Shown here in pieces: positions 5,829 through 44,200 of a DNA stretch of 59,545 bases. This stretch comes from a virus. The stretch is from positions 1 through 59,545 of IMG/VR virus record IMGVR_UViG_3300045612_000175; one strand, 5' to 3'. The position numbers and the translations under genes are program-made. Below the pieces are notes generated by a model that did not search any database, was not told the DNA's origin, and saw nothing but the letters and a program-made list of their open reading frames with translations. How positions within the stretch are numbered: position 1 is the stretch's first letter; each line of letters begins with the position of its first letter.

Positions 5829-6551
5829 ATGAGCTTTGACCGAGAGCTGGGGACGACAGTCCGCAAAGAACACATATTGCAAATCGTCAAGGCTTGGGAA
5901 GGCGATGAGAGCTACGGCGTGCCCCTCGCACTGACTGCTGTGAGTTCGAGCACAAGCCCCGCGCTGTCAGTCAGAAATAGATCGGCGAGCGGCGTGGGAC
6001 TGCTTGTAAGAAATAGCAGTGACACTGGTGACTTGCTGCGGGTCACTGACTCGGGAGCCGCGTTCTCTTTTCAGCCGGGGTCCATTAATGGCTCTGGTGT
6101 GGTCACGCCGAGCATCACGCTTGGTGGAGATAGTGACACAGGCTTCTGGCACCCCGGCGGAAATGATAATAACGGCAATATATCAATTGCAAGTCAAGGC
6201 GCGGAGGTCGAGCGCTGGACACCTACTGCACATACAGTGTATTTGCCGACAACAATTGACGACCAGAATGCAAATGCCGATGGGCTTTCAATCAAGCCGG
6301 TCAATGCGGCTGGTGCGTCGCAGGCAGGCCCAAGGCTTGTGCTTCAGGCGACCGCACTGAGCGGAGCCACAGTCAATGCAAGGGACTTTATTTTGCGTGT
6401 GAGCACCACGGCGGCTGATGGCACGGGGAAGCTCGAAGTGCTAACAAGGCTCAACGGCGGAGCAGAGACCGTCGTCATGAGTCTTACGGACAGTGGCACT
6501 CTCAGCGATTCATTCTCGACATCAGTAGGCAAGATGTGGCTTTGCTCTTAA
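5829..6551 (+). CDS. Putative tail fibre protein
   Basis: The 240-residue product includes GGDSDTGFWHPGG around residues 98-110, a GD-x-DTGF motif common in phage tail fibres and appendages. Ser/Thr/Ala-rich beta repeats precede it (SPALSVRNRSASGVGLLVRNS). AAAGAGG lies just before the ATG. It closes the tail gene run ahead of the lysis genes. A host-contact role is inferred. Confidence 0.55.
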   Translation: MSFDRELGTTVRKEHILQIVKAWEGDESYGVPLALTAVSSSTSPALSVRNRSASGVGLLVRNSSDTGDLLRVTDSGAAFSFQPGSINGSGVVTPSITLGGDSDTGFWHPGGNDNNGNISIASQGAEVERWTPTAHTVYLPTTIDDQNANADGLSIKPVNAAGASQAGPRLVLQATALSGATVNARDFILRVSTTAADGTGKLEVLTRLNGGAETVVMSLTDSGTLSDSFSTSVGKMWLCS

Positions 6552-6579
6552 AATAATAATACTATAGAAAGAAAAAGGC

Positions 6580-12800: not shown

Positions 12801-12868
12801 AGGATAGCCTGCTGCTGTCCCAAGCATGGGAGCCAGACGCGGGGCTTGACATGGAGGCTGGATCCTAG
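9860..12868 (+). CDS. dnaE: DNA polymerase III alpha subunit (C-family replicative polymerase)
   Basis: This is the likely replicative polymerase. At 1002 residues it is shorter than the roughly 1160 of the E. coli protein. The N-terminal PHP domain shows HLHTHSEYSLLDG (6-18) and ITDHGNMHG. The palm carries SPDIDLDFED near residues 376-384 with the two catalytic Asp, and a third candidate Asp lies in GLIKFDLLGLKTL near 522. RPGPMDSIKPY and YQEAIMQIA follow as in DnaE, then a helix-hairpin-helix region and an OB-like block near 915-955. PHP metal residues look largely retained, so proofreading by PHP is possible. No separate epsilon or clamp gene was found in the window. Confidence 0.95.
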   Translation: MSNFVHLHTHSEYSLLDGLSKPRAMAERASALGQKAMAITDHGNMHGAIVFYDACHAAGIKPIIGCEVYTAEAGDKDAGHLILLAADSTGYRNLNQIVSQASLTNFYRKPRVSREMLASWREGIIVLSGCLRGDLAQAIINGGDPIEVARWYRDIFGDRYYIEVHDHGIPAQAIVKQAAVEIARTVRSRIVVAQDSHFVMKGDGQAHEMLLAVQTGGRLSDPGRFKFEGTGFHITSEAEMLETWPREWIEESGRIADRCDLKLELGKQVFPKTPGVGDDEQGTLRGLAYAGAQERYGSLAHKERLDYELETISRNGFTRYFLIVADICRYARSVGIRNSARGSVGGSLVAYCLGIVPVDPMRFGLSFERFLNDGRSPDIDLDFEDARRGEIIQYIAATYGHDKVAQIVTFSEIGGRTALRDVGRALGIGSAQIDVLAKSVPLGRRIEEALESPALKAIEGSDLMRYARRLEGTIRHAGKHAAGVVVADRPLVERATLMRDSAGVMPMVGIDMASAERAGLIKFDLLGLKTLSTVSRAVDLIEERHGPMEPSIDRIPEDETRVWEMLGRGDSVGVFQVESPGMRRVLKEMKPARVEHLQAAVALYRPGPMDSIKPYCERRHGREQATYLHPALEPVLRDTYGLVVYQEAIMQIANRVAGMTPYESDQFLGAVRKKNPEKLRIYEPKFKAGLEAAGLSREQIDKLWAEIVPFANYGFNQAHAAAYGWLAYQTAWLKAVWPQEYYTALLTQDSADPERMAIICHDARRLGVKIHGPSVNESLADFSVASGGGIRFGLAAIKYVGVAAREAIVAARAGGRFTSVEDFRGRVTKRAVNSRALESLAKAGAFDCLGNRRHVLAALGIEAKDMIARLSLEREVMGLAVSADPLAAWDFVALGRDTTLAEVGPLLDEELSPQCVVAGELMERRDITTKTGKPMAIMMLRDETATVRLSAFREAIGRSGHVLVPGKIIMALATPDRWQGEDSLLLSQAWEPDAGLDMEAGS

Positions 12869-12874
12869 TATGAT
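12846..12874 (+). promoter_or_regulatory. Sigma70-type promoter (TTGACA-N17-TATGAT)
   Basis: TTGACA (12846-12851) and TATGAT (12869-12874) are spaced by 17 bases at the very end of dnaE. Transcription would begin near 12881 within a TGGCCCACGGGCCA palindrome (possible operator or 5' hairpin) and read the 12912 gene and the primase-to-terminase run. The upstream GCGGGGCTTGACAT is shared exactly with the promoter at 34123. Confidence 0.75.
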
Positions 12875-12911
12875 CTAGGCTGGCCCACGGGCCAAGAAAG
12901 GAAAGAGACCG

Positions 12912-13358
12912 ATGGCAACAGCCGCAGCGGTCAAGGCACCAGAGAGCAATCCTGAGGAGGGGCTGTTCTTCGCCAAGACCTTCAAGAACCCGAAAGGGGA
13001 GTTCACGCTCGTGCTCGATAACTACGAGCTTCGAGAGCACGTCAAGTACGGCACGAGCATCAGCCTGCGCTTCAAGATCGCCGACGAGGGTGAGTTCGAG
13101 GGGCAGTTCGTGAGCCTCACGATTTGGCCAAGCCCGAAGACGAAGCGGCTTGAGCCTTCGTATGGCGCGAAGCCGAATAACTTTGCTCGCGTGCAGATGG
13201 CGCTCATGGGCCGCAAGCTCAAGGACGGCGAGCCGGTGAACTTCAAGACGCTGCTTGCCTCAGGTGCGAAGATGCGCGCCTTTGTCAAGGAGGACGTGAA
13301 GGAAGACGGCAGCCGCTGGCCGAAGATCGACGTAGAGACCATGGAGCACGTGGCCTAG
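12912..13358 (+). CDS. Possible single-stranded DNA-binding protein
   Basis: The 148-residue protein lies between the polymerase and the primase-helicase under its own promoter, with AAGAAAGGAAAGAG before the ATG. It has the size and alternating beta pattern of an OB-fold protein (GEFTLVLDNYELREHVKYG, SISLRFKIADEGEFEGQFVS, AKMRAFVKEDVKEDGSRWPK). No standard SSB signature or acidic C-terminal tip is present, so this is a context-based suggestion. It could also be another small replication accessory factor. Confidence 0.45.
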   Translation: MATAAAVKAPESNPEEGLFFAKTFKNPKGEFTLVLDNYELREHVKYGTSISLRFKIADEGEFEGQFVSLTIWPSPKTKRLEPSYGAKPNNFARVQMALMGRKLKDGEPVNFKTLLASGAKMRAFVKEDVKEDGSRWPKIDVETMEHVA

Positions 13359-13390
13359 CACGTTCCTTCTCACATACGGCTACTTCAAAA

Positions 13391-13418
13391 AGGAGGAAGG
13401 GGTCGCGGGGGCGGCCCC
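13391..13418 (+). promoter_or_regulatory. Shine-Dalgarno with a foldable spacer before the primase gene
   Basis: AGGAGG (13391-13396) is 31 bases from the primase ATG at 13428, too far to work directly. Between them GGGGTCG (13399-13405) pairs with CGGCCCC (13412-13418) around a six-base loop. If folded, the effective spacing is about 11 bases. No nearer Shine-Dalgarno is present. Confidence 0.5.
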
Positions 13419-13427
13419 TTACTTATC

Positions 13428-15569
13428 ATGGGTAACTTCTTTGATCGCGCGCTAGAATATGTTGGGCGTGGGTGGTTCGTGTTTCCCGTCTGCTGGCCGA
13501 ATGCAAGTGGCTCATGCGGCTGCGGGCGTGGTCATGAGAAGGGCGGCAAAGCCCCATTGGCCGATGGTGGCTACAAGTCTGCGTCCATGGACCTCGACAG
13601 GCTTGAGGAGTGGGACAGGCGCTGGCCTGATGCGAACATTGGCATTGCTCTTGGTGTAAGCGGCCTGTTCGTCATTGACCTTGATGGAGAGGCTGCGGTT
13701 GCCGAGGGACAGAGCCTTGGTCTTGGTGCCACTGCTTGGACAGTCACCGGCAATGGGCAGCACTGGTACTACTCAAGACCGGTCGGGTGCCAAGTCACAA
13801 GGTCTACAGGTCGTGGCCAGAGTGGCAAGATCGACGTGCTTGCAGACGGCGGACTCATTGTGCCTCCGAGTGCCCATGCTTCAGGCAAGGCCTACCAGTG
13901 GGGTCGCACGCCTGAGGCCTGCATGGGAGACCTGCCTGAGCCACCAGCATGGGCGCTAGAGACCTTGGCCGCACAGGTCAAGGCTCGTGTGCCGGTGGCT
14001 ATTGGTGTGGGAGAAGTGTCTGCCATTGCATTGCCTGAGCCTCCTAGTGGGCTAAGCGAGGCGGCCCTGCGTGTCTGGGAGGGCGAGGGCTACGCCGAAG
14101 ACAGGAGCCGTGCGCTGAGCAGGCTCAGTATGTATCTTGCGAATGCTGGCATGGAGTCGGGTCAGATTGCGGGTGTGCTCAAGGGATGGGATGAGGCCAA
14201 GGGCATCGAGTCTGGGCGTGGTCCTAAGTATGCGGGTCGTGCCGATGGTGACATGCGCTATGGCACGCTTGCGACCTCTGCCAAAGAGAAGGTAAAGGCA
14301 CGTCCACAGGGCGACACAAAGGCCACGATCTATGTGCGCCTGTGTGAGGAGTTTGAGGCGCGCTGGCCGGGGCACATGCTTGTAGATGAAGCATGGTACG
14401 AATACAAAGGCGGCGTATGGGAAGAGATCAAGAAGTACGCGATTGAACTTAAAGTGCAAGAACTCATGGGTGCACAAATGAGGCCCAACGTGGTCTTTGG
14501 TGTGGAGCGCATGCTTCGGGGCAGGCTCAGCAAGCCAGCCGATGTATGGAGCGAGGCACCTGAAGTGATCGTGTGCCAAAACGGTGCGGTCGATGTCGAG
14601 ACGGGCCAGTGCTATGGGCATGATCCGAGCTTTTTGGCAAGGCACAAGACATCGTACTTCTATGATCCAGAGGCGACAGCCCCTGTGTGGGAGGCATTTA
14701 TTGCCGACAGGTTCGCACCTGATGTGGCCATGTGGCTTCAGGAATTTGCGGGGCTGTGCCTCACGAATGACATGAGCCATGAAGTTGCTGTCTGGCTCTA
14801 TAGTCCGCCGGGTGCAGGGAAGTCTACGTTTATCACTGGCATGCAACGGGCGCTGGGGCCTGCAAGGTCGGGTCGGCTCTCATTGGCCGACATGGTTCGG
14901 AATCCGAGGTTTAGCCTTGTGAACATTCCGGGCAAGACACTCCTCGTGGCGGCTGAGCAGCCAAGCACGTGGGTCGATTGCAGCGATGTCATCAATAGCC
15001 TGATCTCTGGCGATACAGTTTCGATTGAGGCCAAGCATCAGAACATCTATGACGCGAGGCCAGTCTGCAAGATTCTCTGGGGCATGAATGAATTGCCGAG
15101 GCTACAGTCTGCGGCAGATGGAATCTTCAGGCGCGTCAAGATCGTAAAGATGGCGGCCATCGAGAAGCTTGATCCACGCATCAAGGACAAGATTGAGTCC
15201 GAAGGCGCAGGCATCTTGCGCTGGGCAATGGAGGGACTGAGGCGGCTCCGGCTCAGTGGCCAAGGCCTAGGGGCGAGAGTGCCTGCATCTATTGATGCGG
15301 CAGGCATGGAGTTCCGGCGCTCCAACGATGTGGTGTCCTCGTTCTTTGATGAGCGGATTGAGCGCGATGGTCAGTTGCGGGTGCAGGCCCAAGAGCTGTA
15401 TGATGCCTACAATGCGTGGTGCCTGCGTAATGGCTACAGGCCAAAGAGTAGAAATACCGTGGGCCAAGAGTGGACACGCATGGGGCTAGAGGCAAAAGTT
15501 TCTGGGGGGCGTACGTATTACATCGGTGCGAAGCTTCGCGACATGGGGCTTCCAAGGGAGGACGAATGA
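13428..15569 (+). CDS. Prim-Pol primase fused to D5/SF3 helicase
   Basis: This 713-residue protein would prime and unwind DNA at the replication fork. The N-terminal archaeo-eukaryotic primase-type domain has GWFVFPV at 14-20, the metal-binding FVIDLDGE near 80-87, NGQHWYYS near 106 and KIDVLADGGLIVPPSAHASG near 134-153. A Cys-rich segment (CGCGRGHEKGGKAPL) sits near residues 30-44. The C-terminal superfamily 3 helicase has Walker A SPPGAGKST near 459-467, LLVAAEQPSTW as the B region and WGMNELP near 545 as the polar sensor. This is the P4/D5 plasmid-phage primase architecture. Its TGA overlaps the ATG of the next gene. Confidence 0.9.
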   Translation: MGNFFDRALEYVGRGWFVFPVCWPNASGSCGCGRGHEKGGKAPLADGGYKSASMDLDRLEEWDRRWPDANIGIALGVSGLFVIDLDGEAAVAEGQSLGLGATAWTVTGNGQHWYYSRPVGCQVTRSTGRGQSGKIDVLADGGLIVPPSAHASGKAYQWGRTPEACMGDLPEPPAWALETLAAQVKARVPVAIGVGEVSAIALPEPPSGLSEAALRVWEGEGYAEDRSRALSRLSMYLANAGMESGQIAGVLKGWDEAKGIESGRGPKYAGRADGDMRYGTLATSAKEKVKARPQGDTKATIYVRLCEEFEARWPGHMLVDEAWYEYKGGVWEEIKKYAIELKVQELMGAQMRPNVVFGVERMLRGRLSKPADVWSEAPEVIVCQNGAVDVETGQCYGHDPSFLARHKTSYFYDPEATAPVWEAFIADRFAPDVAMWLQEFAGLCLTNDMSHEVAVWLYSPPGAGKSTFITGMQRALGPARSGRLSLADMVRNPRFSLVNIPGKTLLVAAEQPSTWVDCSDVINSLISGDTVSIEAKHQNIYDARPVCKILWGMNELPRLQSAADGIFRRVKIVKMAAIEKLDPRIKDKIESEGAGILRWAMEGLRRLRLSGQGLGARVPASIDAAGMEFRRSNDVVSSFFDERIERDGQLRVQAQELYDAYNAWCLRNGYRPKSRNTVGQEWTRMGLEAKVSGGRTYYIGAKLRDMGLPREDE

Positions 15570-16180
15570 TCCGGGCAATGCTTGTGGGGCGTGCAGGCGT
15601 AGGCAAGGACACGGTTGCTGCGTTCATGAAGAAGCACGCAGGCGAGCCAGTGGCCTTGGCCTCGCTCGCTGAGGGCGTGAAGCTTCAGGTCGCTGCCATG
15701 CTCGACATGGCAATCGACAAGTATGGCGTGCCACGCGCGAAGCTCTGGCAAGGCAGCGATGAGAGTGTGATGCGAAACGCAAATGAGTCGAGGAGTCTGC
15801 TCAGGCCAATATGGCAGTGGTATGGTACGGACTTCGTGCGGAGCGCTGATCCGGGCTTTTGGATCAGGGACTTGCATAAGCGCACTGGCCATGTGCAGAA
15901 CCTCATTGTGACCGATTGCCGCTTCAAGAACGAGGCAGACTATGCGAGGCGCAACGGACTCGTGCTGCTGAGAGTGGCTGGCCCTGATCGGCGCAATACA
16001 CCAGAGGGCGACCCGGTCCTGAGGCACGAGAGCGAGCGGCAAGTAGATGACATTGCTTGCCAGTTCGTGATCGACAACGGGTGCACGCTCACTGAGCTTG
16101 AGGATTACGTGGCGTCGGCGGTGCTGCCGTTTGTGCGGCTGCACTCATTCCATGGAAAGGAAATTGCTGATGGCTTTTGA
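15566..16180 (+). CDS. Deoxynucleoside monophosphate kinase-like protein
   Basis: The chosen ATG 15566 overlaps the upstream stop as ATGA and follows AAGGGAGG; longer in-frame starts lie within the primase gene. The 204-residue product has an N-terminal P-loop GRAGVGKDT (8-16), an FVRSADPGFWIRDLHKR block and VTDCRFKNEADYARRNG. Together these resemble T4 gp1-like dNMP kinases and the adenylate-kinase-like P-loop family. It would phosphorylate dNMPs toward dNTPs, alongside NrdJ, ThyX and Dcd. Confidence 0.75.
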   Translation: MIRAMLVGRAGVGKDTVAAFMKKHAGEPVALASLAEGVKLQVAAMLDMAIDKYGVPRAKLWQGSDESVMRNANESRSLLRPIWQWYGTDFVRSADPGFWIRDLHKRTGHVQNLIVTDCRFKNEADYARRNGLVLLRVAGPDRRNTPEGDPVLRHESERQVDDIACQFVIDNGCTLTELEDYVASAVLPFVRLHSFHGKEIADGF

Positions 16181-18365
16181 TGGTTTGCGCAAGAAGGTGT
16201 TCCTCGACAGGTACGCACTGAGGGCAGAAGACGGCACAGTGGTCGAGGCAACCCCCGAGCACATGTGGAGGCGCGTAGCCCGAGGCGTCGCGCAGGTCGA
16301 GGAGCCGAAGAATCGCGCCCACTGGGAGGATGTTTTCTATGGCGCGCTTGAGGACTTCAAGTTCGTACCGGGAGGACGCATCCTCTCGGGGGCAGGCACC
16401 GGCCATGATGTCACGTACTACAACTGCTTTGTGATCCCGAGTCCTGAGGATAGCCGCGAAGGCATCATCAAGAATCTCGGCATCATGGTGGATCTCATGG
16501 CACGGGGTGGTGGCGTGGGTGTGAACCTTAGTAGCCTCAGGCCTCGTGGCTCATACATCAAGACAGTGAACGGGCGCTCAAGCGGCCCGTGCTCGTGGGC
16601 GGAGCTGTACTCTGTCGCGACAGGCGACGTGATTCAGCAAGGTGGCACGAGGCGCGGTGCGCTCATGCTCATGCTCAATGACGACCACCCAGACATCGAA
16701 GAGTTCATTAGTGTCAAGCGAGACCTCAAGAGACTCAATCACGCGAACCTGAGTGTGTGCGTGTCTGACTCTTTCATGCAGGCAGTCAAGGCTGATGGGC
16801 CTTGGGACCTCAAGTGGGATGGCAAGGTCTTGCGCACAATCAAGGCCGCAGACCTCTGGGCCAAGATCTGTGAGAGCGCATGGGCCTCAGGCGAGCCGGG
16901 CCTTGTCTGGATGGAGCGCTACAACAAGCAGGCCCCGACGTATTACTACGAGAATATCATATGCGTAAATCCTTGTGGGGAGCAGGGGCTTCCTGAGTGG
17001 GGTGTCTGCAACCTTGGGGCACTGAACCTTGCTGCGTTTGTCAATGATGGGGTCTTCGACTTCGTGGGCCTCGGCGATGTCACGCGAAGGGCCGTGCGGT
17101 TCCTCGACAATGTGATTGATAGCACGGGCTATTGGTACGAGGAGAACAGGCAGGCACAGCAGGAGGCCACGAGGCGCATTGGCCTCGGCACGATGGGCCT
17201 TGCTGATGCACTGATTGCCCTCAAGATTCCGTATGGCAGCGATGAGTGTATCGACTTTATTGATCGAGCATATGGAACAATTGCAACGCATGCGTACAGT
17301 GCGAGCGCAGACCTTGCATATGAGCGCGGCTCATTTGGCAAGTATGAGCGTGAGGCGTATGCGCGTGGCTGGTTCATGACCAACGTGCTCGACAGGAGTG
17401 TGCGCGCGAAGATCCATGACCTCGGGATCAGAAACGCCGTGCTTCTGACGCAGGCTCCGACAGGTACCACGAGCCTCCTCGCAGGGGTGTCGTCGGGCAT
17501 TGAGCCGATCTATGACTTTGTGATGAAAAGGACCGACAGGATCGGCACGCACATCATCAAGCATCCTGCGCTTGAGGAGTGGGATGCGCAGGCAGGCGAA
17601 GGCCAAGAGTCACGTGGCATGCCTCCGTGGCTTGTGTCGGCCAATGATCTGGCACCCGAGGATCACGTGCGTGTGCAGGCGGCAATCCAGCGATGGACAG
17701 ACAGCAGTATCTCGAAGACATGCAACGCACCACGCTGGCACACGGTCAAGGACGTAGAGACTCTCTACATGATGGCCTATGATCTTGGGTGCAAGGGGAT
17801 TACGTACTTCCGTGACGGATGTCGTGAGGGTGTACTGAGCCACGTTGAGCCGGAGCCAGTGCCAGTGCCAGTGAAGGCCAAGGTGACGAGGCCTCAGGTT
17901 CTTGGCGGCAACACCGCGCGAGTGACCACGAAGCTTGGCACGATGTTCGGCACCATCGCAACATTGGATGATGGCTCGCCCTACGAGATGTTCTTGAATC
18001 TCGGGCGCTCAGGCTCTGAGACTTCCACATTCATGGAGGCACTTGGGCGGCTTGTGAGTCTTGTCTTGCAGGTCGATGAGCAAGGCCCTGAGGCGAGGTT
18101 GCGTGAAGTGCGGAACCAGCTCAGGGGGATTGGTGGCGTGCAGACAGGCGCATATGGGCTGAAGATTCGCTCAGTGCCTGATGCAGTGGCCGAGGTCATC
18201 GACCTGATTCAAGGCTGGGGAGTCGAGGCAGACGTGTTCATGCCTGAGCTTGCGGGGCCAAGGTCGAAGGTGGCCGCAGACCTGTGCCCTGAGTGTGGCT
18301 CGGCAAGCCTCATTAAGGAAGAGGGCTGCTCAAAGTGCTATAGTTGCGGCTACAGCGCTTGCTAG
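16170..18365 (+). CDS. nrdJ: Class II (adenosylcobalamin-dependent) ribonucleotide reductase
   Basis: The enzyme reduces ribonucleotides to deoxyribonucleotides using coenzyme B12, without oxygen or a small subunit. The ATG at 16170 follows GGAAAGGAAA; starts at 16152 and 16098 are in frame but lie deeper in the kinase gene. In 731 residues it shows VTYYNCFVIP (redox Cys near 85), NPCGEQ near 267 (thiyl Cys and Glu), GVCNLGALNLAAF (second redox Cys) and APTGTTSLLAGVSSGIEP near 430. The C-terminus has a zinc-finger-like CPECG-x(n)-CSKCYSC cluster, usual for B12-dependent forms. No NrdB or NrdD partner is present. Confidence 0.92.
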   Translation: MAFDGLRKKVFLDRYALRAEDGTVVEATPEHMWRRVARGVAQVEEPKNRAHWEDVFYGALEDFKFVPGGRILSGAGTGHDVTYYNCFVIPSPEDSREGIIKNLGIMVDLMARGGGVGVNLSSLRPRGSYIKTVNGRSSGPCSWAELYSVATGDVIQQGGTRRGALMLMLNDDHPDIEEFISVKRDLKRLNHANLSVCVSDSFMQAVKADGPWDLKWDGKVLRTIKAADLWAKICESAWASGEPGLVWMERYNKQAPTYYYENIICVNPCGEQGLPEWGVCNLGALNLAAFVNDGVFDFVGLGDVTRRAVRFLDNVIDSTGYWYEENRQAQQEATRRIGLGTMGLADALIALKIPYGSDECIDFIDRAYGTIATHAYSASADLAYERGSFGKYEREAYARGWFMTNVLDRSVRAKIHDLGIRNAVLLTQAPTGTTSLLAGVSSGIEPIYDFVMKRTDRIGTHIIKHPALEEWDAQAGEGQESRGMPPWLVSANDLAPEDHVRVQAAIQRWTDSSISKTCNAPRWHTVKDVETLYMMAYDLGCKGITYFRDGCREGVLSHVEPEPVPVPVKAKVTRPQVLGGNTARVTTKLGTMFGTIATLDDGSPYEMFLNLGRSGSETSTFMEALGRLVSLVLQVDEQGPEARLREVRNQLRGIGGVQTGAYGLKIRSVPDAVAEVIDLIQGWGVEADVFMPELAGPRSKVAADLCPECGSASLIKEEGCSKCYSCGYSAC

Positions 18366-26084: not shown

Positions 26085-26600
26085 ATGGCACGTGTAAGCA
26101 CGGCGGATCTGGCGGCCCGGATCGACAACCTCGCAGCGGCCGTGACCGCGCAAGGTGAGACACTCGCGAGGATCGCCGACAATGGGGAGCGCCTCCTACA
26201 GGCGCTGGAGCGCATGGCAACACCCACGGTCGCACGGGTGATCGAGGGCAAGGTTTCCGTGGCGGCTCAGATCGGCAGGGCACAGGCTAAGGCGCTCCCG
26301 CGCAGGGTCGAGGGCACGATGACCCCGGTGGTCAATCTGGCCATCGGTGACCGGGTCAGGTTTAGCGCGGTCACTCGCACGACCGCAAGCGCGAAGATCA
26401 TGTCCGTGGACGGCGACAAGCGCAAGGACACGGGCGCGGTCGAACCCATCGGGTCTGGCAATCTGGCCAGCATCGAGGGCGTGGTCCGGGGCATCGCGGG
26501 TAAGGTGTGTGTGACGGTCGAGGTCGCACACGGCGCGGGCAAGGTTCTCCAGATCTGGGTCCGCAAGGATCAGGAGATCGAGCGCATCGCGACCGCGTAA
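26085..26600 (+). CDS. Unknown early protein
   Basis: From ATG 26085 (GGAG eight bases upstream) the 171-residue product begins with a helical segment (TADLAARIDNLAAAVTAQGE, RIADNGERLLQALERM) suited to a coiled coil. A beta-rich C-terminal domain follows, with repeated short strands (PVVNLAIGDRVRFSAV, SIEGVVRGIAGKVCVTVEVA, VLQIWVRKDQEIERI) that could be an SH3- or KOW-like barrel. It opens the rightward early operon. The frame is open back to 25983 without a supporting start. No family is recognised. Confidence 0.65.
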   Translation: MARVSTADLAARIDNLAAAVTAQGETLARIADNGERLLQALERMATPTVARVIEGKVSVAAQIGRAQAKALPRRVEGTMTPVVNLAIGDRVRFSAVTRTTASAKIMSVDGDKRKDTGAVEPIGSGNLASIEGVVRGIAGKVCVTVEVAHGAGKVLQIWVRKDQEIERIATA

Positions 26601-26607
26601 CACACAA

Positions 26608-26642
26608 GGGCGGGCACGCAAGTGTCCGCCCAACACTCTTGC
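26608..26642 (+). promoter_or_regulatory. Leader structure: strong hairpin with possible pseudoknot
   Basis: GGGCGGGCAC pairs with GTGTCCGCCC around a GCAA loop. GCAAG (26618-26622) can also pair with CTTGC (26638-26642), giving an H-type arrangement with an AACACT loop if the top C-G pair opens. ACACAGGGAG and the start codon follow. The topology matches the elements before the next four genes, but the sequence differs. Confidence 0.45.
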
Positions 26643-27005: not shown

Positions 27006-27033
27006 CGGCACGGGGCAGGCCGCACACTGCCCC
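27006..27033 (+). promoter_or_regulatory. Leader pseudoknot candidate, divergent form
   Basis: CGGC (27006-27009), GGGGCAG (27012-27018), GCCG (27019-27022) and CTGCCCC (27027-27033) can pair first-with-third and second-with-fourth, an H-type pseudoknot. Loops are AC, none and CACA. ACACACCCACACGGAGG and the next start codon follow. It shares the GGCAG/CTGCC stem core with the three downstream copies. Confidence 0.45.
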
Positions 27034-27057: not shown

Positions 27058-27321
27058 ATGGACATCGTCGGATACGGCCCCATGTTCAGGGACCAAGAGG
27101 ACTTCGCGGCGGACGCTGAGTGGCGGAAGTGGGTCGAAAGCCCCCAAGGGCGCGAGGCATTGAAGACCCAGCGCGAAGAGGCACAGGCAGAGCACGAGGC
27201 CAAGATGGCTTCGTGTGCATCATACCGCTTGATGCAAGCCGAGATCGAGGCGGCACTGTCCGCCTCTGCGCCCGGCGAGTACGTCCTCGCTTCAGAGTGG
27301 CGACCGAACCGTTTCCGTTAG
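27058..27321 (+). CDS. Unknown small early protein
   Basis: The 87-residue product (MDIVGYGPMFRDQEDFAADA...) is acidic and mostly helical, with a charged middle (EALKTQREEAQAEHEAKMAS) and a beta-like end (GEYVLASEWRPNRF). GGAGG precedes the ATG. Its TAG forms the first bases of the first 54-base leader repeat. Function is not recognised. Confidence 0.6.
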   Translation: MDIVGYGPMFRDQEDFAADAEWRKWVESPQGREALKTQREEAQAEHEAKMASCASYRLMQAEIEAALSASAPGEYVLASEWRPNRFR

Positions 27322-27326
27322 GCACC

Positions 27327-27360
27327 CATGCGGTTGGCAGATCCGCATGTAAAACTGCCA
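27327..27360 (+). promoter_or_regulatory. H-type pseudoknot leader, copy 1
   Basis: Stem 1 is CATGCGG (27327-27333) with CCGCATG (27343-27349). Stem 2 is TGGCAG (27335-27340) with CTGCCA (27355-27360). Loop 1 is a single T, loop 2 is AT and loop 3 is TAAAA, sizes that fit a classical H-type pseudoknot. CACAC and AAGGAGG (27366-27372) follow, and the gene starts at 27380. The surrounding 54 bases (27319-27372) are identical in copy 2. Confidence 0.75.
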
Positions 27361-27379
27361 CACACAAGGAGGCACAGGC

Positions 27380-27613
27380 ATGAACGCTATTCTCGCGCAG
27401 TATCGCGGCGATGTGATCTTCACGTCGCCTGAAACGGCCGGTGCTCTGGGCCGGACGTTCGCCGGGGCGGACGTCGTGCTCGGTCCCGAAGGCACGGTGA
27501 CGCAAGTCATCGTGCACAACCGCTTGGATGGGGTGCGCATCAAGCGCGCCATCTTGCGGCGACTGCGGGGACAGTTCGTAGCGGTCTCAGAGCGCCAAAG
27601 CCGCGCACTCTAG
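27380..27613 (+). CDS. Unknown small protein, pseudoknot-led cassette 1
   Basis: The 77-residue product (MNAILAQYRGDVIFTSPETA...) appears to be a small alpha/beta domain with a basic C-terminal helix (RIKRAILRRLRGQFVAVSER). A strong AAGGAGG is seven bases upstream, directly after pseudoknot copy 1. Identical leader repeats bound it on both sides, so it sits like a cassette. No family recognised; nucleic-acid binding is possible from the basic helix only. Confidence 0.6.
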   Translation: MNAILAQYRGDVIFTSPETAGALGRTFAGADVVLGPEGTVTQVIVHNRLDGVRIKRAILRRLRGQFVAVSERQSRAL

Positions 27614-27618
27614 GCACC

Positions 27619-27652
27619 CATGCGGTTGGCAGATCCGCATGTAAAACTGCCA
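27619..27652 (+). promoter_or_regulatory. H-type pseudoknot leader, copy 2
   Basis: Stem 1 is CATGCGG (27619-27625) with CCGCATG (27635-27641); stem 2 is TGGCAG (27627-27632) with CTGCCA (27647-27652). Bases 27611-27664 are identical to copy 1, including the TAG stop at the left edge and the AAGGAGG at the right. The gene it leads starts at GTG 27672. Confidence 0.75.
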
Positions 27653-27671
27653 CACACAAGGAGGACTTCAC

Positions 27672-27896
27672 GTGCGTATCACTGTGGCAGATAGCGGGGC
27701 GGCCTACAAGGCCGTCTGCATGATGCACGAAAGTGCACGACGGTCGTTCGATGTGGTCCTGATCCATGCGGGCGACGCACGAGCCGACGTGCTCGTGCAT
27801 GGTCCCGAGATCGGGGCCGCACTTGCGGCGGTTCGAGTACTCCGTGCGCTCTTCAAGCGCTGCGGTGTGAAGAACACCGTGGCAATCGAACTCTAG
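27672..27896 (+). CDS. Unknown small protein, pseudoknot-led cassette 2
   Basis: The 74-residue product starts at GTG 27672, seven bases after AAGGAGG. It reads as a compact alpha/beta domain: ITVADSGAAYKAVCMMHESA, RSFDVVLIHAGDARADVLVH, then a helix ALAAVRVLRALFKRCG and strand NTVAIEL. Two of its cysteines are in the helices. It lies between leader copies 2 and 3. Function unknown. Confidence 0.6.
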   Translation: MRITVADSGAAYKAVCMMHESARRSFDVVLIHAGDARADVLVHGPEIGAALAAVRVLRALFKRCGVKNTVAIEL

Positions 27897-27901
27897 GCGA
27901 C

Positions 27902-27935
27902 CGCGGTTGGCAGATCCGCGTATGTAAAACTGCCA
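27902..27935 (+). promoter_or_regulatory. H-type pseudoknot leader, copy 3 (covarying stem)
   Basis: Stem 1 is CGCGG (27902-27906) with CCGCG (27916-27920); stem 2 TGGCAG (27908-27913) with CTGCCA (27930-27935) is unchanged. Relative to copies 1 and 2 a T-A pair has become C-G, a compensatory double change. Loop 3 is longer (TATGTAAAA). CACACACAGGAGG and the ATG at 27955 follow. Confidence 0.7.
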
Positions 27936-27954
27936 CACACAGGAGGAACGAGCC

Positions 27955-28554
27955 ATGTCCGCGATCCCGATGCCCACGATGGTGTACGTGCCGCAGGAGA
28001 TGACGCACGAGAGCGTCAAGGACTTGAGGCTGATGCTTCGGCATCAAGATGTTCGTATCGTGCGCTCGAACGATAGCAGCATTCGCATCGAGGGTGATGC
28101 GCTGCGTGCTCCGCGTGTGCAGGCAGCGCTCGGCACGCGATGGTATAGCCGCAACATGATTGACGGCGCTACGCAGTACAACATCTGGCAGCGCGGGCAA
28201 GCGCTCAAGGATGCCCTTGATGCGAGGGCAAGGCGCGAGGGGGCCGGTCGGCTCTGGGGCGATGAGACACCCGAAGAGATGCGCCTTGATGAGGCCATGG
28301 GCGGAAGGCACTTCGCGTGGCAGCCCAATGTGCTGGGGCGGATCGACGCCATCGCCACCACGTGCCCGATGTGCTTTGCGAGGACCACTTATGGCAGTGC
28401 ATGCAAAGTCCATGCGCACGAAGTGTACCGCGAAAGGTTGCGCGAACAGATCCGCGAGGCAGAAGCGGAGGCACTGGACCTTGAGAGGCGGGCGGTCCGT
28501 GCGAGGGCATGGCTCGACAGGCTGCGCGAAGAACTGGAGGCTGCCAGTGCCTAA
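27955..28554 (+). CDS. Unknown protein with Cys-rich patch and coiled-coil end
   Basis: The 199-residue product has a mixed N-terminal domain (MVYVPQEMTHESVKDLRLML, IRIEGDALRAPRVQAALG), a central TTCPMCFARTTYGSACKVHA with Cys-x-x-Cys and a further Cys/His that may bind zinc, and a C-terminal charged helix (RERLREQIREAEAEALDLER). It is the third gene with the pseudoknot leader. No family recognised; a zinc-stabilised nucleic-acid or protein-interaction role is a guess. Confidence 0.6.
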   Translation: MSAIPMPTMVYVPQEMTHESVKDLRLMLRHQDVRIVRSNDSSIRIEGDALRAPRVQAALGTRWYSRNMIDGATQYNIWQRGQALKDALDARARREGAGRLWGDETPEEMRLDEAMGGRHFAWQPNVLGRIDAIATTCPMCFARTTYGSACKVHAHEVYRERLREQIREAEAEALDLERRAVRARAWLDRLREELEAASA

Positions 28555-34486: not shown

Positions 34487-36637
34487 ATGGGCGCTCGTGA
34501 ATGGACTGCGGAAGAGACCCTTGAGCTGGCGCTGCTCTTGCATAGTGGCCTCAGGCACCTTGCCTCTTATGACGAGGACAGGGCACGCAAAGAGAATGAG
34601 GTCGGCTTCAATGCACGCGACACGGAGTTTGGCCATAGGCTTGCGGGATCTGATCCGCATGGCTGGTCCCCGAAGATGATCGAGATCGCATTCAAGATGG
34701 CCCGCACGTATAGCCGCACTCAGTTGCGTGGCCTCGGCATCGACTGGTCTCGGCCGTATGTTGCGACAGAAGCGGCAACCGACGCATGGCGCAAGGGATC
34801 GAGGCCTGCCATCGCGCGAGTCGTCCTTGGCAAGAATAGCCGGGGCGAGGAGGGCATGGTCTTTGAGTTCACATATAGTGCGGCCCATGTGGCGAGCCTC
34901 AAGGCTGCTCGCGCATGGTTCATGCCGGAGAGGACAAGCCGCGGGGCTGGCGCATTGTCCGCATGGTGGGCGGCCTTCGACAATGTGGCCGCACAAGAGC
35001 TTGCCCAGTCTGAGGGCTGGGACATGAGCGACGGCATCATGCTCAAGATTGCAGGTGCTGTCTCCAAGGCACTTGGGCTACCGAGAGTGCGAGGGCCGCA
35101 GGCACCAGATGCACTTGACTTCACGGGGCTTGAGTCCCTTAGGCCCTTTCAAGTGGAGGGTGCGACGTGGCTTGTGCGCCAAGGCCGTGCAATCCTAGGC
35201 GATGACATGGGCACGGGCAAGACACTTCAAGTGCTCGCTGCCACACAGGCTGCGGGCGCATGGCCATTGCTCGTGATCTGCCCCGCTGTCGTGAAGCTGA
35301 ACTGGGCGAAGGAAGTCTTCAAGTGGCTGCCGGGCAGGAGTGTGAGCGTACTGGGTGTGAAGCGCGCGAGTTGCGTGCTCGATGGTGAGGCACGGTCCAT
35401 TGAGTGCGGGAACATGGATGCCGATGTTGTGGTCGTGAACTACGACATCGTGGGCAAGTACCGCGAGGCCCTCGGCGCCAAGGCATGGGGTGCAGTGGTC
35501 TGCGACGAGAGCCATTACCTCAAGACGCACAATGCGTTGCGTACCAAGCATGTGACGTGGCTCATGACGGGCTACGACAAGGACTTGAAGCGGCGCACGA
35601 AAGATGCCGTGCCATATCGGTGGCTCTTGAGTGGCACGCCCATGCTCAATCGGCCGATTGAGCTTGTGAGCCAGCTCACGATTATCGACAGGCTACAGGA
35701 ACTCGGTGGCTTCAAGAACTTTGTGGCTACGTATTGCGACGCAAAGCACAACGGCTTCGCATGGGACTACAGTGGCGCAAAGAATATGGCGGGCCTCGGC
35801 GTGGCCATGAAGCGCATCATGCTCAGGCGCACGAAGGCCGAGGTCCTGCCGGAGTTGCCACCGAAGAGCCGCGAGTACTTGAGTGTGGGCCTCGCGAATG
35901 AGGCCGAGTACCGGCGCGCAGAAGGGGCCGTCGCCAAGTGGATCGGCGAGTGCCACGCGAAGGATGCCGAGTTCATGGAGGGCCTCTACGCACAGGCCGC
36001 AGAGGCAGGTCTCGAAGGCGAAGGCTACGAGGCATTTATGGCAAAGGCCATCGAGGCACGCGAGAGATCCGCGACGAAGCGTGCCGAGAGGGCCGAGGCT
36101 CTCGTGCGATTCACCGCACTCAAGAGGCTGGCCGCAAAGGGCAAGTTGCCCGCAGTCATTGAGTGGGTGCAGGACTGGCTTGACTCAAACGAGGGGCGCA
36201 AGCTCGTGATCTTTGGCCACCATGTCGAGACCGTGCGGGAACTTGCGGTCGCATTCGGGAGCCGCGCCATCGAGGGGAGCACGAGCGCACAGGACAGGCA
36301 GGCCTATGTCGATGAGTTCCAGACGGACCCGAGTGTGCGCGTGATCGTCGCCAACATTCAGGCGGGTGGCGTGGGCATCACACTGACTGCGGCATCTGAC
36401 GTGCTGTTTGTCGAGCAGCATTGGAATCCCGGCACGCACGATCAGGCGGAGGATCGCGTGAACAGGCTGGGTCAGAGCCGTGCATGTGTGGCATACTACA
36501 TGATTGCAGAGGGGACCATTGATGAAGAGATCGCAAGCATGATCGAAGGCAAGCGAGCGATTGTCGCAGAAGGCACAGGCGACGAGGGCGCATTGAAGAC
36601 ACTCGGCACATGGCTGAGTGCGCGAGGAGGCAAGTGA
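34487..36637 (+). CDS. SNF2-family helicase/ATPase
   Basis: The 716-residue product starts at ATG 34487 after AAGGAG; the frame is open upstream to 34364 without support. After an N-terminal 200-residue unknown domain come motif I GDDMGTGKT near 239-247, motif II CDESHY near 340, motif III SGTPMLN near 382-388, and the C-terminal half with NIQAGGVGITLTAASDVLFV, QHWNPGTHDQ and EDRVNRLGQSR (motif VI). It translocates on or remodels branched DNA and is close in layout to SMARCAL1/HARP-type annealing helicases used in phage replication or repair. The next gene overlaps its stop. Confidence 0.88.
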   Translation: MGAREWTAEETLELALLLHSGLRHLASYDEDRARKENEVGFNARDTEFGHRLAGSDPHGWSPKMIEIAFKMARTYSRTQLRGLGIDWSRPYVATEAATDAWRKGSRPAIARVVLGKNSRGEEGMVFEFTYSAAHVASLKAARAWFMPERTSRGAGALSAWWAAFDNVAAQELAQSEGWDMSDGIMLKIAGAVSKALGLPRVRGPQAPDALDFTGLESLRPFQVEGATWLVRQGRAILGDDMGTGKTLQVLAATQAAGAWPLLVICPAVVKLNWAKEVFKWLPGRSVSVLGVKRASCVLDGEARSIECGNMDADVVVVNYDIVGKYREALGAKAWGAVVCDESHYLKTHNALRTKHVTWLMTGYDKDLKRRTKDAVPYRWLLSGTPMLNRPIELVSQLTIIDRLQELGGFKNFVATYCDAKHNGFAWDYSGAKNMAGLGVAMKRIMLRRTKAEVLPELPPKSREYLSVGLANEAEYRRAEGAVAKWIGECHAKDAEFMEGLYAQAAEAGLEGEGYEAFMAKAIEARERSATKRAERAEALVRFTALKRLAAKGKLPAVIEWVQDWLDSNEGRKLVIFGHHVETVRELAVAFGSRAIEGSTSAQDRQAYVDEFQTDPSVRVIVANIQAGGVGITLTAASDVLFVEQHWNPGTHDQAEDRVNRLGQSRACVAYYMIAEGTIDEEIASMIEGKRAIVAEGTGDEGALKTLGTWLSARGGK

Positions 36638-39180: not shown

Positions 39181-39203
39181 GCGCATGTGCATGGGGGCCA
39201 TGG

Positions 39204-39275
39204 AGCCGAGAGTGGGAGTCGAACCCACGACTGGCGGTTTACAGGACCGCTGCTCTGCCACTGAGCTATCTCGGC
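39204..39275 (-). tRNA. tRNA-Thr (UGU)
   Basis: The minus strand folds as acceptor GCCGAGA/TCTCGGC, D arm GCTC/GAGC, anticodon stem GCGGT/ACCGC, T arm GTGGG/CCCAC with TTCGACT loop, discriminator T, and CCA encoded at 39201-39203. The seven-base anticodon loop is CCTGTAA, so the anticodon is UGU (reads ACA). Position 33 is C instead of the near-universal U. All stems are fully paired. Confidence 0.85.
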
Positions 39276-39276
39276 G

Positions 39277-39348
39277 TGGCCCCCGTGGGACTCGAACCCA
39301 CAGCCCAAGGATTAAAAGTCCCTTGCTCTACCGTTGAGCTAGGGGGCC
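39277..39348 (-). tRNA. tRNA-Lys (UUU)
   Basis: Stems are acceptor GGCCCCC/GGGGGCC, D GCTC/GAGC, anticodon AGGGA/TCCTT with one G-U pair, and T GTGGG/CCCAC. The loop CTTTTAA has U33 and anticodon UUU, which reads AAA/AAG. It is separated from the Thr gene by one base, so the two are probably one transcript. CCA is not encoded. Confidence 0.92.
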
Positions 39349-39364
39349 GCATGAGGAGGATACC

Positions 39365-39931
39365 ATGGCATACTCGGGTGATGACGTGACCAAGCCAAGC
39401 TGGCATGCGAGTGTGCGGGTCGGTGGCTTCGACGACGAGTGGCTGAAGTGGGAGGGCGTGGATCGCGCACACATCTTGCACGAGATCGTGAACATCAACG
39501 ATGCGCCCTATGAGGTGCCAGTCGTAGACAAGAACTACGTGAATTGGTGGCCAAAGGGCTGGAGGCTGGGGCTTGTACGGCCCTCGTACTTGTGGACGCT
39601 CATTGCCATGAACGCACACAAGGGGCTGACTGTCAGGGCCGTTGATGATGACCTGACTGTCGTCACGAGGGCGACTGATCCGCTCCTTGTGTGGGATGCA
39701 GTGGCGTCATTTGCGGCGACTGTTGATGAGACCCTTGTGATCTACAGCAAGGGGCCTAAGCCCGTGAAAATCAGGCTCACCCCTGATCGCGATGTCATGG
39801 CCACGTGCTACGAGCTAGATTCCGTGACTGGTGCAGATGGCGACCCGCTCGATGGCGATGGCGAATGGCCCGAGGGGGTGGAGTGCGCGAAGCTCGCATG
39901 GGACTTGGCGTGGAAGAGGCGTGAGCTATGA
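39365..39931 (+). CDS. Unknown protein between the tRNA pairs
   Basis: The 188-residue product (MAYSGDDVTKPSWHASVRVG...) has GGAGG nine bases before the ATG. It is rich in Trp and Asp, with an alternating beta pattern (LTVRAVDDDLTVVTRATDPL, VDETLVIYSKGPKPVKIRLT) and an acidic segment (GADGDPLDGDGEW). It lies on the strand opposite both tRNA pairs. No family recognised. Confidence 0.55.
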   Translation: MAYSGDDVTKPSWHASVRVGGFDDEWLKWEGVDRAHILHEIVNINDAPYEVPVVDKNYVNWWPKGWRLGLVRPSYLWTLIAMNAHKGLTVRAVDDDLTVVTRATDPLLVWDAVASFAATVDETLVIYSKGPKPVKIRLTPDRDVMATCYELDSVTGADGDPLDGDGEWPEGVECAKLAWDLAWKRREL

Positions 39932-39969
39932 GGACATAAGTCCGTAAGGACGTGAGGCGGCGCGCGTGG

Positions 39970-40042
39970 TGCCTCGGGCGCGGGTCGAACGCGCGACCGT
40001 CCGCTTAGAAGGCGGATGCTCTGTCCACTGAGCTACCGAGAC
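39970..40042 (-). tRNA. tRNA-Arg (UCU)
   Basis: Acceptor GTCTCGG/CCGAGGC (one U-G pair), D GCTC/GAGC, anticodon TCCGC/GCGGA, T GCGCG/CGCGC with TTCGACC loop. The loop CTTCTAA gives anticodon UCU (reads AGA/AGG). The discriminator is A and CCA is encoded at 39967-39969. Confidence 0.92.
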
Positions 40043-40052
40043 GCGCCCATGG

Positions 40053-40125
40053 TAGGCCCGGCGGGAATTGAACCCGCGGCCACTGACTTATAAGGTCAGT
40101 GCTCTCACCACTGAGCTACGGGCCG
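40053..40125 (-). tRNA. tRNA-Ile (UAU)
   Basis: D GCTC/GAGC, anticodon CTGAC/GTCAG, T GCGGG/CCCGC with TTCAATT loop. The loop CTTATAA gives anticodon UAU, reading AUA. The acceptor is CGGCCCG with CGGGCCT, so six pairs form and position 1-72 is a C-U mismatch. CCA is encoded (40050-40052). Confidence 0.85.
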
Positions 40126-41256: not shown

Positions 41257-41296
41257 TGTCCTCCGTTTCTACAAGTAAGGCTTATTGCGGAGGACA
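41257..41296 (+). promoter_or_regulatory. Hairpin sequestering the Shine-Dalgarno of the giant gene
   Basis: TGTCCTCCG (41257-41265) is perfectly complementary to CGGAGGACA (41288-41296), which contains the GGAGG (41289-41293) of the gene starting at ATG 41300. The loop is 22 bases. Folding would hide the ribosome-binding site, so translation likely depends on opening this stem. Confidence 0.7.
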
Positions 41297-41299
41297 CCA

Positions 41300-44200
41300 A
41301 TGACGTTTACATCACGAGGCTTCGGTATCAGAACCAATGCTGACGCACAGAAGGCGCGGCTTGATGAGCTTGCAAGGAGAGTAAACCTAGGGAAGCCTGA
41401 AGAGCAGGCCCCTACTGGCCCCACGGCCGCGGACTACAATGCAGTCGCAGGCCTTGTGCCTGAGGCATTCCCTGCTGGCTTCGAGCCACTGCCCGAGCGT
41501 CCAGTCGATCCAGAGCAGGCAGCCATTGATGCCGCAAGAGCCAGAGCATCGGCGTACCTGAGCGCGCCAGACAACGCTGCGATGCAGACCACAGACATTG
41601 GTGGCACGCAAGTCAGGTCATTGAGGCCGGGCATGACATGGAACTTCACGCCCGAAGAGGCAGCCTCGCGTATCGACACGTTCGAGTCCGCAATCAATGC
41701 AGGCGTGAACCTCACACCTGCCGAGCGCGAGGAGTACATGGCGGCACAGGCCACCCCCGGCGTGAACATTCGCAAGGGTGGCTGGGACACGGCAGGCAGG
41801 AACCTCTTTGTCGGCGCAACGGGAGGCGTGGCTGCCCCCATTGGCGGTGCCATGCGCTTCATTGGCGAGAATGCTGGCGTGCCGGGCATGGCAGAGAGCG
41901 GGGCAGCCATCGAGGAAAGCGCGGCTGGGCAACAGGCCCGCTTCAATCCGCCGACAAAGGAGCAGCTCGACAAGGCGACGGGCGTGCCTGAGCCGAAGCC
42001 AGAGTGGGGGGCGAACAGCCTGTTCCAAGTCAACACATGGACGGACGGGCGCATGCTTGACCCGAAGTGGTGGGAGGCCCTCGGCGCACAGAACTGGGTC
42101 AAGACGACAGGCATGCAGGGGCTTGGCTCATTTGCTGGAACTGCGCTTGTTACCGCGCCCCTTTCCATGGGGGCGAGCGCACTGCTTGAAGCGCCCATGC
42201 TTGTCGTTGGTGCGCGCTTTGGACTGAAGCCCGGTGTCATTCGAGGCAGCCTTGAGATTGCCGACAGGCTTGGCCTTGGTGGGGGCGATGTCGTTGACGC
42301 ACTCACAGAAGCAGCAACTGCATATTCAGATGCAAGACGTGAAGGCAAGTCTATAGACGAAGCAAACAGAATTGCCGGTCAAGTCAGTGCCATGAATGTG
42401 GCGACGAATGTTGCGCTTGGCTCTGCCGGTGAAGTTGCAGCCAAGCTCAAGGGTGCAGGCATGGCGGCACGGAAGCTCAACAATTTGCTGAGACGTAGCC
42501 CCGTGCCTGTTGAGACGCAGCTCGCGACCGCAGAAAGAATGGCATCAGAAGGACTCATTCAAAAAGTCATCCTTGATAAGGTCAAGTCTGCAATTATTGC
42601 AGGTGCAAGAGAGGGACTTCAAGAGGCGCAGCAAGGCAACATTCAGGACACGGCAAAGGACGACACGCCATGGGATGTCATGCGTGCGTACACGAGCGGC
42701 AAGTACACGGACGACATGCTCGCTGGCGCATTGCTTGGTGGGGGCAGCCGCTTTGTCGGATCAATGCGGACGATGGCAAGGCCAAGCGGTGCGCTCGGCA
42801 TCATGTCGCAGCCACAGAAGGCACAGATTGAATCTGTGATTGGCGACAATCCTGTATTCAAAAACCTCCCTGAAGAAAGCGCATCAAGACTTGAGGATCT
42901 GAAGAGTCGAGTATCTTCAGGACAAGTGTCTTTTGATGATGGAGTACGAGAGTTAGTTGACATTGCATTTGAATTGCCATCTGAACATTTTGATGCAATC
43001 AGACCAAAACTTGACATGCTTGAGGAGAGCGCTGCCGAAAGTGCGACTCAAGAAACAGGAGGTGGTGGGGGCGCACCTCCGACACCGCCACCTACAAAGA
43101 CGGGCGGAACACCAGTAGATCCAGAAGAGGAGCGCATCAGAAGGCTCATGGATCTAGATGATCCACTCAGGCCGGGGTCAAAACTTATAGATAGATATAG
43201 AAGTCTTGCAAGTCAGGCTCGTCAAGGTGTGCTTACAGCAGATCAACTAAGAAATGATTTGTTTGATCGTATTCAAGATGATAGCAATCTTGATGATGAA
43301 GGAGTTAGCGCTCTTACAGATGCATTGCAAAGTCTTGATATATCTGCTCCACAAAGTGAAGCAGTAGCAAATGCAGAAAGAATGTACGCTGCAAGAGATA
43401 GGGAAACAGAGGAAGTAATCACACCGGAACCTCCAACAAAAAGCTCGTCAAGCATAGCACCTAGTGCAGCTCAAACACCTAGTACTGCTAGGTTTACGAA
43501 GCCAGAACAGACTATTCCTACAGAGCAAGCGGATGCAGAAGTTCGCAAGGCAGTAGACGAATTCCTTGCACAGAATCCTGACATTAAAATATCTAGAGAT
43601 ATTATATACGATCAAAAGTATAAAGATTTTGTGCAAGAATTAACTAATAAATATAATTATACAAGTATATATGCACCTCCTGAGTATAATGAGTTTGCTC
43701 CATGGAAAGTTCCACAAGACTCTGCACGTATGGCTATATATAGTCAGCTAATTCAAGGAAGGCGCGCACAGCAAGCAGGATCACAGCAAGCGGCTACACG
43801 TATTATAACTACTCCGCAAGCTAGACAGAGGCTTGCAAATCTCGGAATGACAAATGAACAACTTGTACGCTATGTTCCTACTCCAAGCGGAAATAATGGA
43901 TCATATACTCTAGCCGACGTAACAAAAGCAGAGAGTCTAATGAATGCGGAGGGTTCCGTCGCGGGAGAGCCTGTTGCCGAACAGCCTGTTGCCAAGCCAC
44001 CGGCCGCCGAGCAGCTCGTCACCGAGCCACCGGCCGCCGAGCCACCGGCCGCCGAGCAGCCCGTCACCGAGCAGCCCGTCGCCGAGCGACCAGCCGCCCA
44101 ACGAGTCGTTAGGTTTGAAAATCCTTTTATTCAGAAAGCTTTTGAAGCTGCAAAAGAAAATGGACTTGTATCTGATGAAGATATCCTTGCGCTTTCTCCA

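Follow-up and report, generated by a model that had tools for sequence, protein, structure and literature searches.

H-type RNA pseudoknots with covarying stems at phage gene junctions

Few of the known phage regulatory RNAs are pseudoknots. REP elements and the RNase III junctions of T7 early mRNA are intercistronic stabilising structures of a simpler kind, namely hairpins. The nearest analogue of the elements described here is the pseudoknot in the gene 32 mRNA of T4, T2 and RB69, the translational operator of gp32: in this phage mRNA, a ~28-nt H-type pseudoknot is located 5′ of an unstructured leader with the ribosome-binding site (RBS), and T4 gp32 binds this pseudoknot upstream of its own RBS (PMC535899, PMC3014915). 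According to a 2010 review, translational autoregulation by a viral pseudoknot may be limited to the gene 32 knot (PMC3014915).

The window analyzed here is the whole of a 59,545-nucleotide stretch of viral DNA (IMG/VR record IMGVR_UViG_3300045612_000175). The original prediction, made from its sequence, was that elements with two interlocking stems at 27327, 27619, and 27902 form a cis-acting translational control element, bound by a ligand or by a phage protein, that may coordinate three genes.

Three pseudoknots in the window

Three H-type pseudoknots are indeed found on the + strand, all where they had been placed. Their parts and neighbors are as follows.

27319..27321, + strand: TAG stop codon of an 87-aa ORF (27058-27321), 5 nt 5′ of pseudoknot copy 1
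27327..27360, + strand: pseudoknot copy 1, from the generic H-type scan and family covariation
27327-27333/27343-27349, + strand: stem 1 (P1) of copy 1, CATGCGG/CCGCATG, 7 bp
27335-27340/27355-27360, + strand: stem 2 (P2) of copy 1, TGGCAG/CTGCCA
27334, 27341-27342 and 27350-27354, + strand: loops of copy 1, L1 (T), L2 (AT) and L3 (TAAAA)
27361..27372, + strand: CA-rich linker and Shine-Dalgarno sequence (SD; AGGAGG, 27367-27372) of a 77-aa ORF with an ATG start at 27380
27619..27652, + strand: pseudoknot copy 2, upstream of a GTG-start 74-aa ORF (27672-27896)
27902..27935, + strand: pseudoknot copy 3, upstream of a 199-aa ORF (27955-28554)
27902-27906/27916-27920 and 27908-27913/27930-27935, + strand: P1 (CGCGG/CCGCG) and P2 of copy 3
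27921-27929, + strand: L3 of copy 3, TATGTAAAA

The predicted anatomy was borne out: P2 is TGGCAG/CTGCCA, P1 has 7 bp in copies 1 and 2, and the loops of these two copies, one base, two bases, and TAAAA, give the classical H-type geometry. P1 of copy 3 is shorter and, as had been claimed, carries a compensatory replacement of T-A by C-G, which is at the fifth pair. Also as predicted, each copy is followed by AGGAGG and a short ORF; the spacing from the P2 end to AGGAGG is 5-6 nt and the linker between them is CA-rich. A landmark beyond that prediction, as striking as the SD, is the upstream TAG stop, since all three copies begin exactly 5 nt 3′ of one. From stop codon to SD, the 54 nt of copies 1 and 2 are identical (27319-27372 = 27611-27664), so that these two represent a recent duplication or conversion of the entire junction.

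When the whole window was scanned with a generic H-type descriptor, the + strand yielded exactly these three matches and the − strand no match; reversed-sequence controls gave 0 and 2 matches. Folding with nested structures, which cannot model pseudoknots, gave z of −0.5 to 0 for the three copies. Neither a core search nor the descriptor scan found the core elsewhere in the window, including the region upstream of its four tRNA genes (Thr, Lys, Arg, and Ile; 39201-40125, − strand). As for other features of this phage, a DnaE-type DNA polymerase III alpha subunit, a ribonucleotide reductase, and a helicase are encoded in 9860-18365 and 34487-36637. A 2991-aa ORF with long low-complexity GT and PPAPPVN repeats occupies 41285-50260, a stretch whose G+C of 0.43-0.54 is clearly below that of the rest of the window.

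Covariation of both stems and the conserved core

The exact core is present in 8 IMG/VR contigs. Four of these are near-identical (three of them, at this locus) or otherwise related to the window phage, and the rest are unrelated contigs in which the P1 sequences differ and are mostly still complementary. A syntenic relative of the window phage (L044), whose proteins reach 94% identity, carries two copies in this region, with the P1 stems CGTGG/CCACG and TGCGG/CCGCA.

The family was searched with our own descriptor scans and a pair count on the named structure; Infernal models cannot hold a pseudoknot. A relaxed pattern, GTTGG-NN-GAY-C…AAAAC-NN-CCA, yielded at least 142 distinct matches in IMG/VR contigs. 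Among the matches listed, 89 of 142 could form both stems through the positions that the pattern leaves open (Watson-Crick at both unfixed P2 pairs and a P1 of at least 3 bp), compared with 6.8±2.4 (maximum 17) in shuffles that permute the 3′ strands, and completion of P1 was associated with that of P2 (Fisher P=2e-11, 142 distinct matches listed). The stems are diverse, with nine top triplets in P1 and nine middle pairs in P2 among the matches listed. Furthermore, the pair count was applied to 98 distinct rows of 27 columns, which were not chosen for pairing and were made gapless by trimming variable L3 nucleotides. It gave 161 doubly changed cells, where shuffles gave 63±10 (0/500). The covariation score was 0.333; shuffles reached 0.117 and slid-pair controls did not exceed 0.11, sliding of the partners thus abolishing the signal. 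Homologues with covarying stems, on whose existence the original prediction had made itself depend, are therefore found in IMG/VR. Two interlocking stems are kept by compensatory change, and the elements are, on this comparative sequence evidence, real and selected RNA pseudoknots.

Outside IMG/VR, nucleotide searches, protein relatives, and the regions read revealed no such element (class 1) in 50,697 phage records, for which BLAST is too insensitive with a 30-nt variable-stem element, so that this result does not argue for its absence there, and a scan of the genome collection returned mostly chance matches among the matches listed.

The strict core consists of U in L1, AY in L2, AAAA in L3, UGG/CCA in P2, and the junction G-C. 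Since UGG/CCA and several loop bases are part of the search patterns, their invariance in the 98-row count is imposed. With the outer three P2 pairs left free, most of the convincing copies still have UGG/CCA, the exceptions including TACCAG/CTGGTT directly 5′ of a tRNA-like sequence in L578. A descriptor lacking the P2 sequence, applied to whole phage contigs, returned mainly the same core in 1-3 copies each; this descriptor demands a 6-bp P2 and so misses the third class with its 4-bp P2 (see below). Because both kinds of scan return mainly the same core, with exceptions, the core is preferred, not absolute.

Since its sequence is so strongly conserved, the core leaves room for a dedicated binding factor, either a phage or a host protein. 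A protein-bound operator in the style of T4 gene 32, by which such a protein would recognize the core and repress or process the mRNA, has in its favor that conservation of the core in unrelated contigs goes beyond what pairing requires, that each scanned phage has only 1-3 core copies, in neighboring genes, and that there is a precedent in the T4 gp32 pseudoknot upstream of its own RBS (PMC535899, PMC3014915). However, the genes around the copies are heterogeneous and no protein gene common to the carriers was identified; in the window, the proteins flanking the pseudoknots match no PHROG or Pfam family. The tRNA and promoter contexts described below do not fit autoregulation either, and we regard an operator of this type as rather unlikely. 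The claim that a phage protein binds the element is thus backed by the conserved core and weakened by heterogeneous genes and by these contexts.

Gene boundaries, tRNA leaders and promoters

The steadiest landmark of class 1 copies is the upstream stop codon. P1 is 3-10 nt (mode 5-6) 3′ of a same-strand ORF stop in 46 of ~105 copies, and within 20 nt in 55. The stop codons are mixed (TAA 35, TAG 17, and TGA 3), which rules out stop-codon readthrough as a general explanation. Genes upstream of the copies are functionally mixed as well, encoding head proteins, SSBs, ATPases, and tail proteins. The copies are located between genes on the sense strand of both neighbors, as intercistronic stabilizers would be, in 58 of 64 scored cases.

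In the mRNA junctions, as in the window, the knot is followed by an SD. This arrangement has suggested a translational insulator or enhancer, in which the knot would keep the SD and the CA-rich linker unpaired, block ribosomes coming from the upstream stop, and tune downstream initiation. The P2 end 5-6 nt before AGGAGG in the window would be near the 5′ edge of the 30S footprint, the linkers are poor in G (8.7% in the 12 nt 3′ of P2), and start codons are mostly 17-35 nt downstream in mRNA contexts. Such a role is nevertheless unlikely, in that copies in the tRNA and promoter contexts have no RBS to insulate.

The first of these other contexts is the tRNA leader, where knots end 3-10 nt 5′ of tRNA genes. 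These are found in the following contigs.

L022 (three knots), L027, L058, L096, L468, L514, and L576: class 1 knots in tRNA leaders

Pseudoknots of different sequence occupy the same place in L253. In L022, a ROOL RNA (4262-4815) adjoins the tRNA genes whose leaders hold the knots. The knot of L468 (10999-11220, − strand) heads a run of three tRNAs, the third of which is tRNA-Pyl according to ARAGORN, a possible amber suppressor.

In a group of contigs (e.g., L408), copies are found between the stop of an AAA-ATPase gene and a TTGACA-17-TATAAT-like, sigma70-like promoter, a few nucleotides upstream of the latter and in some cases followed by T-rich DNA. In a T4-like lineage, the late promoter TATAAATA is located 2-8 nt upstream of P1. 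A simple late promoter was rejected as the general explanation, TATAAATA-like sites being just upstream of only about a dozen copies. The positions after stop codons, together with the T-rich DNA and new promoter that follow some copies, might indicate a transcriptional element that signals pausing, termination, or anti-termination where genes end; yet the sequence 3′ of most copies is CA-rich or mixed instead of U-rich, with co-directional genes beyond it, and such an element is very improbable.

A small-molecule riboswitch acting on translation may also be considered. Small H-type pseudoknots with an A-rich L3 can be aptamers, as in preQ1-I, and the loops of the family are conserved. On the other side, Rfam covariance models (preQ1-I, ToxI, HDV, and others) gave no match over any element even at permissive thresholds, in agreement with the prediction that no known riboswitch class is involved. 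Only ~7-8 nucleotides are unpaired, the downstream genes share no pathway, and copies occur before tRNAs and promoters. We consider this the least probable of the readings, and the ligand that had been proposed for the element is correspondingly unlikely to be a metabolite.

Other structures are found in the same slot. RNA structure is likewise found at the two junctions preceding the three pseudoknots, on which the original prediction was silent: each has a plain hairpin, strong in one case and weaker in the other.

26608..26631, + strand: plain hairpin GGGCGGGCAC/GTGTCCGCCC, MFE −22.2 kcal/mol, z −6.75
27012..27033, + strand: plain hairpin GGGGCAG/CTGCCCC, z −1.24, a weaker signal

The former begins 7 nt after a TAA stop (26598-26600) and shows the layout of structure, linker, and SD; the latter, in the gap that precedes the 87-aa ORF, has a CA-rich linker and then GGAGG on its 3′ side. 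Plain hairpins occupy junctions in L473 and L497 too, and pseudoknots without the core are enriched 0-12 nt after stops, with 22 in two 6-nt bins against ~3 per bin upstream.

A second class of pseudoknots, CTGAGNCA-N…AAACTGNCTCA, has both stems in 61 of 85 distinct matches, compared with 5.9±2.3 in shuffles. Its copies closely follow stop codons, are on the sense strand of both neighbors in 44 of 52 scored cases, and in many instances have no SD-led gene within 150 nt downstream, which counts further against a translational insulator. Discordant orientations, scored for a 3′ versus a 5′ role with a crude gene caller, are 7 versus 1 in class 2 and 3 versus 3 in class 1, and neighbor orientation hardly discriminates the two roles. 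Class 2-like knots are also found in two isolates, Rhizobium phage RHph_Y65 and Synechococcus cyanophage S-RIM4. Some class 2 knots are enclosed in an outer GGGC/GCCC stem, most clearly in L650, L661, L666, L680, and L727, and also in L704, L714, L716, L734, and L739, most of them behind a ~160-codon gene. In L713, a type II hammerhead ribozyme (6497-6558) shares its strand with a class 2 pseudoknot and is located ~300 nt downstream of it. A third core, GGTT-T-NCGG-TC-AACC...AAAA-CCGN, was observed at adjacent junctions of one phage.

L040, − strand, near 1833, 3407, and 5567 of the reverse complement: third-core pseudoknots

These observations bear on the proposal of a translational control that coordinates three genes, which finds no support in the family: copies 3-10 nt before tRNA genes have no translation to control, others are upstream of sigma70-like promoters or behind head, SSB, ATPase, and tail genes, and neighboring junctions of the same layout hold plain hairpins or unrelated pseudoknots. 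What survives is the cis-acting element itself, as selected pseudoknots just upstream of SDs in the window, without the dedicated role in translation. The tRNA and promoter contexts, the mixed upstream genes, and the hairpins at neighboring junctions also argue against a metabolite riboswitch or a one-protein operator.

A proposed boundary element and its relation to known structures

What the contexts have in common is a sense-strand gene boundary, not an RBS, and this favors an element acting at the RNA level. Our preferred reading, held tentatively, is that the family is an intercistronic boundary element, a compact knot blocking 3′→5′ decay or isolating the next ribosome-binding site; a compact RNA barrier is most likely when weighed against a small-molecule switch. 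A translational insulator and a protein-bound operator are less probable but serious competitors. The element would be a 30-40 nt H-type RNA pseudoknot in sense orientation, transcribed from the space that separates two phage genes. It has the classical compact geometry, in which a 1-nt L1 spans the 6-bp P2 and an A-rich L3 runs beside a P1 of 3-7 bp. Cleavage of the polycistronic RNA may occur within the linker, which is G-poor and unstructured, or be carried out by RNase P where a tRNA follows, and the knot would then halt 3′-to-5′ exonucleases close behind the stop codon or the tRNA leader. Folding on itself, the knot might also keep the next SD from pairing with upstream RNA. At other junctions, hairpins or pseudoknots of other sequence could take the same role. 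In the tRNA leaders, the 3-10 nt between knot and tRNA are all that cleavage by RNase P would leave as a 3′ tail, which is less than most 3′ exonucleases require. To our knowledge, no processing enzyme has been described for this pseudoknot family. The late promoter 2-8 nt before P1 in the T4-like lineage puts the knot at the 5′ end of the transcript, which counts against a 3′ barrier, and a barrier that works by mechanics alone would leave the strict core unexplained.

A wider reading is that the knots belong to an undescribed superfamily of phage junction pseudoknots, with at least three classes in mRNA gaps and tRNA leaders, and that a conserved host or phage factor recognizes them to cut or protect polycistronic RNA. 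We think this doubtful as a whole; if true, the superfamily would be the bacterial-virus counterpart of nuclease-resistant RNA elements, working from the 3′ side. The family, carried by many uncultured phages, adds to structured RNAs a large one with strong covariation in two stems, which is absent from Rfam 15. An element common to mRNA junctions and tRNA leaders makes the protection and partition of phage polycistronic RNA directly testable, and such short, sequence-defined pseudoknots could serve in laboratory constructs as insulators or stabilizers.

A description of the family was not found in the literature (open-licence papers), and the family is apparently undescribed, while its members are classed as H-type pseudoknots used as intercistronic elements, a kind already known. 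Several small pseudoknotted RNAs resemble it in part. Theta ribozymes, which are HDV-like, are also small pseudoknotted phage RNAs adjoining tRNA genes, with the cleavage site at tRNA 3′ ends and the P3 and J4/2 parts of HDV (PMC10879173); the present elements are 5′ of tRNAs and have only 2 nt between P2 and P1′ and neither P3 nor J4/2, which holds the catalytic C, and were not assigned to them. ToxI-type antitoxins of type III toxin-antitoxin systems are likewise ~35-nt H-type RNA pseudoknots, and were rejected for the window copies, which are ~290 nt apart without tandem repeats, are flanked by genes with no toxin match, and have no Rfam match. The preQ1-I riboswitch shares a small H-type pseudoknot with an A-rich L3 upstream of an SD; it was dismissed because Rfam gives no match, the loop sequences are different, no recognized queuosine genes adjoin, and the elements occur outside mRNA leaders.

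With intercistronic stabilizing hairpins, the family has in common a stable RNA structure between genes, right after a stop codon, in polycistronic transcripts, and differs in that its structure is knotted around a conserved core, where theirs is a plain hairpin. The gene 32 knot is a single site bound by an SSB upstream of the SSB's own gene, with UUAAA repeats, while the knots of the window do not precede a gene for a recognized SSB, the proteins encoded beside them matching no SSB. In contrast to that single site, the present family is widespread, follows the stops of many genes, and extends to tRNA and promoter contexts.
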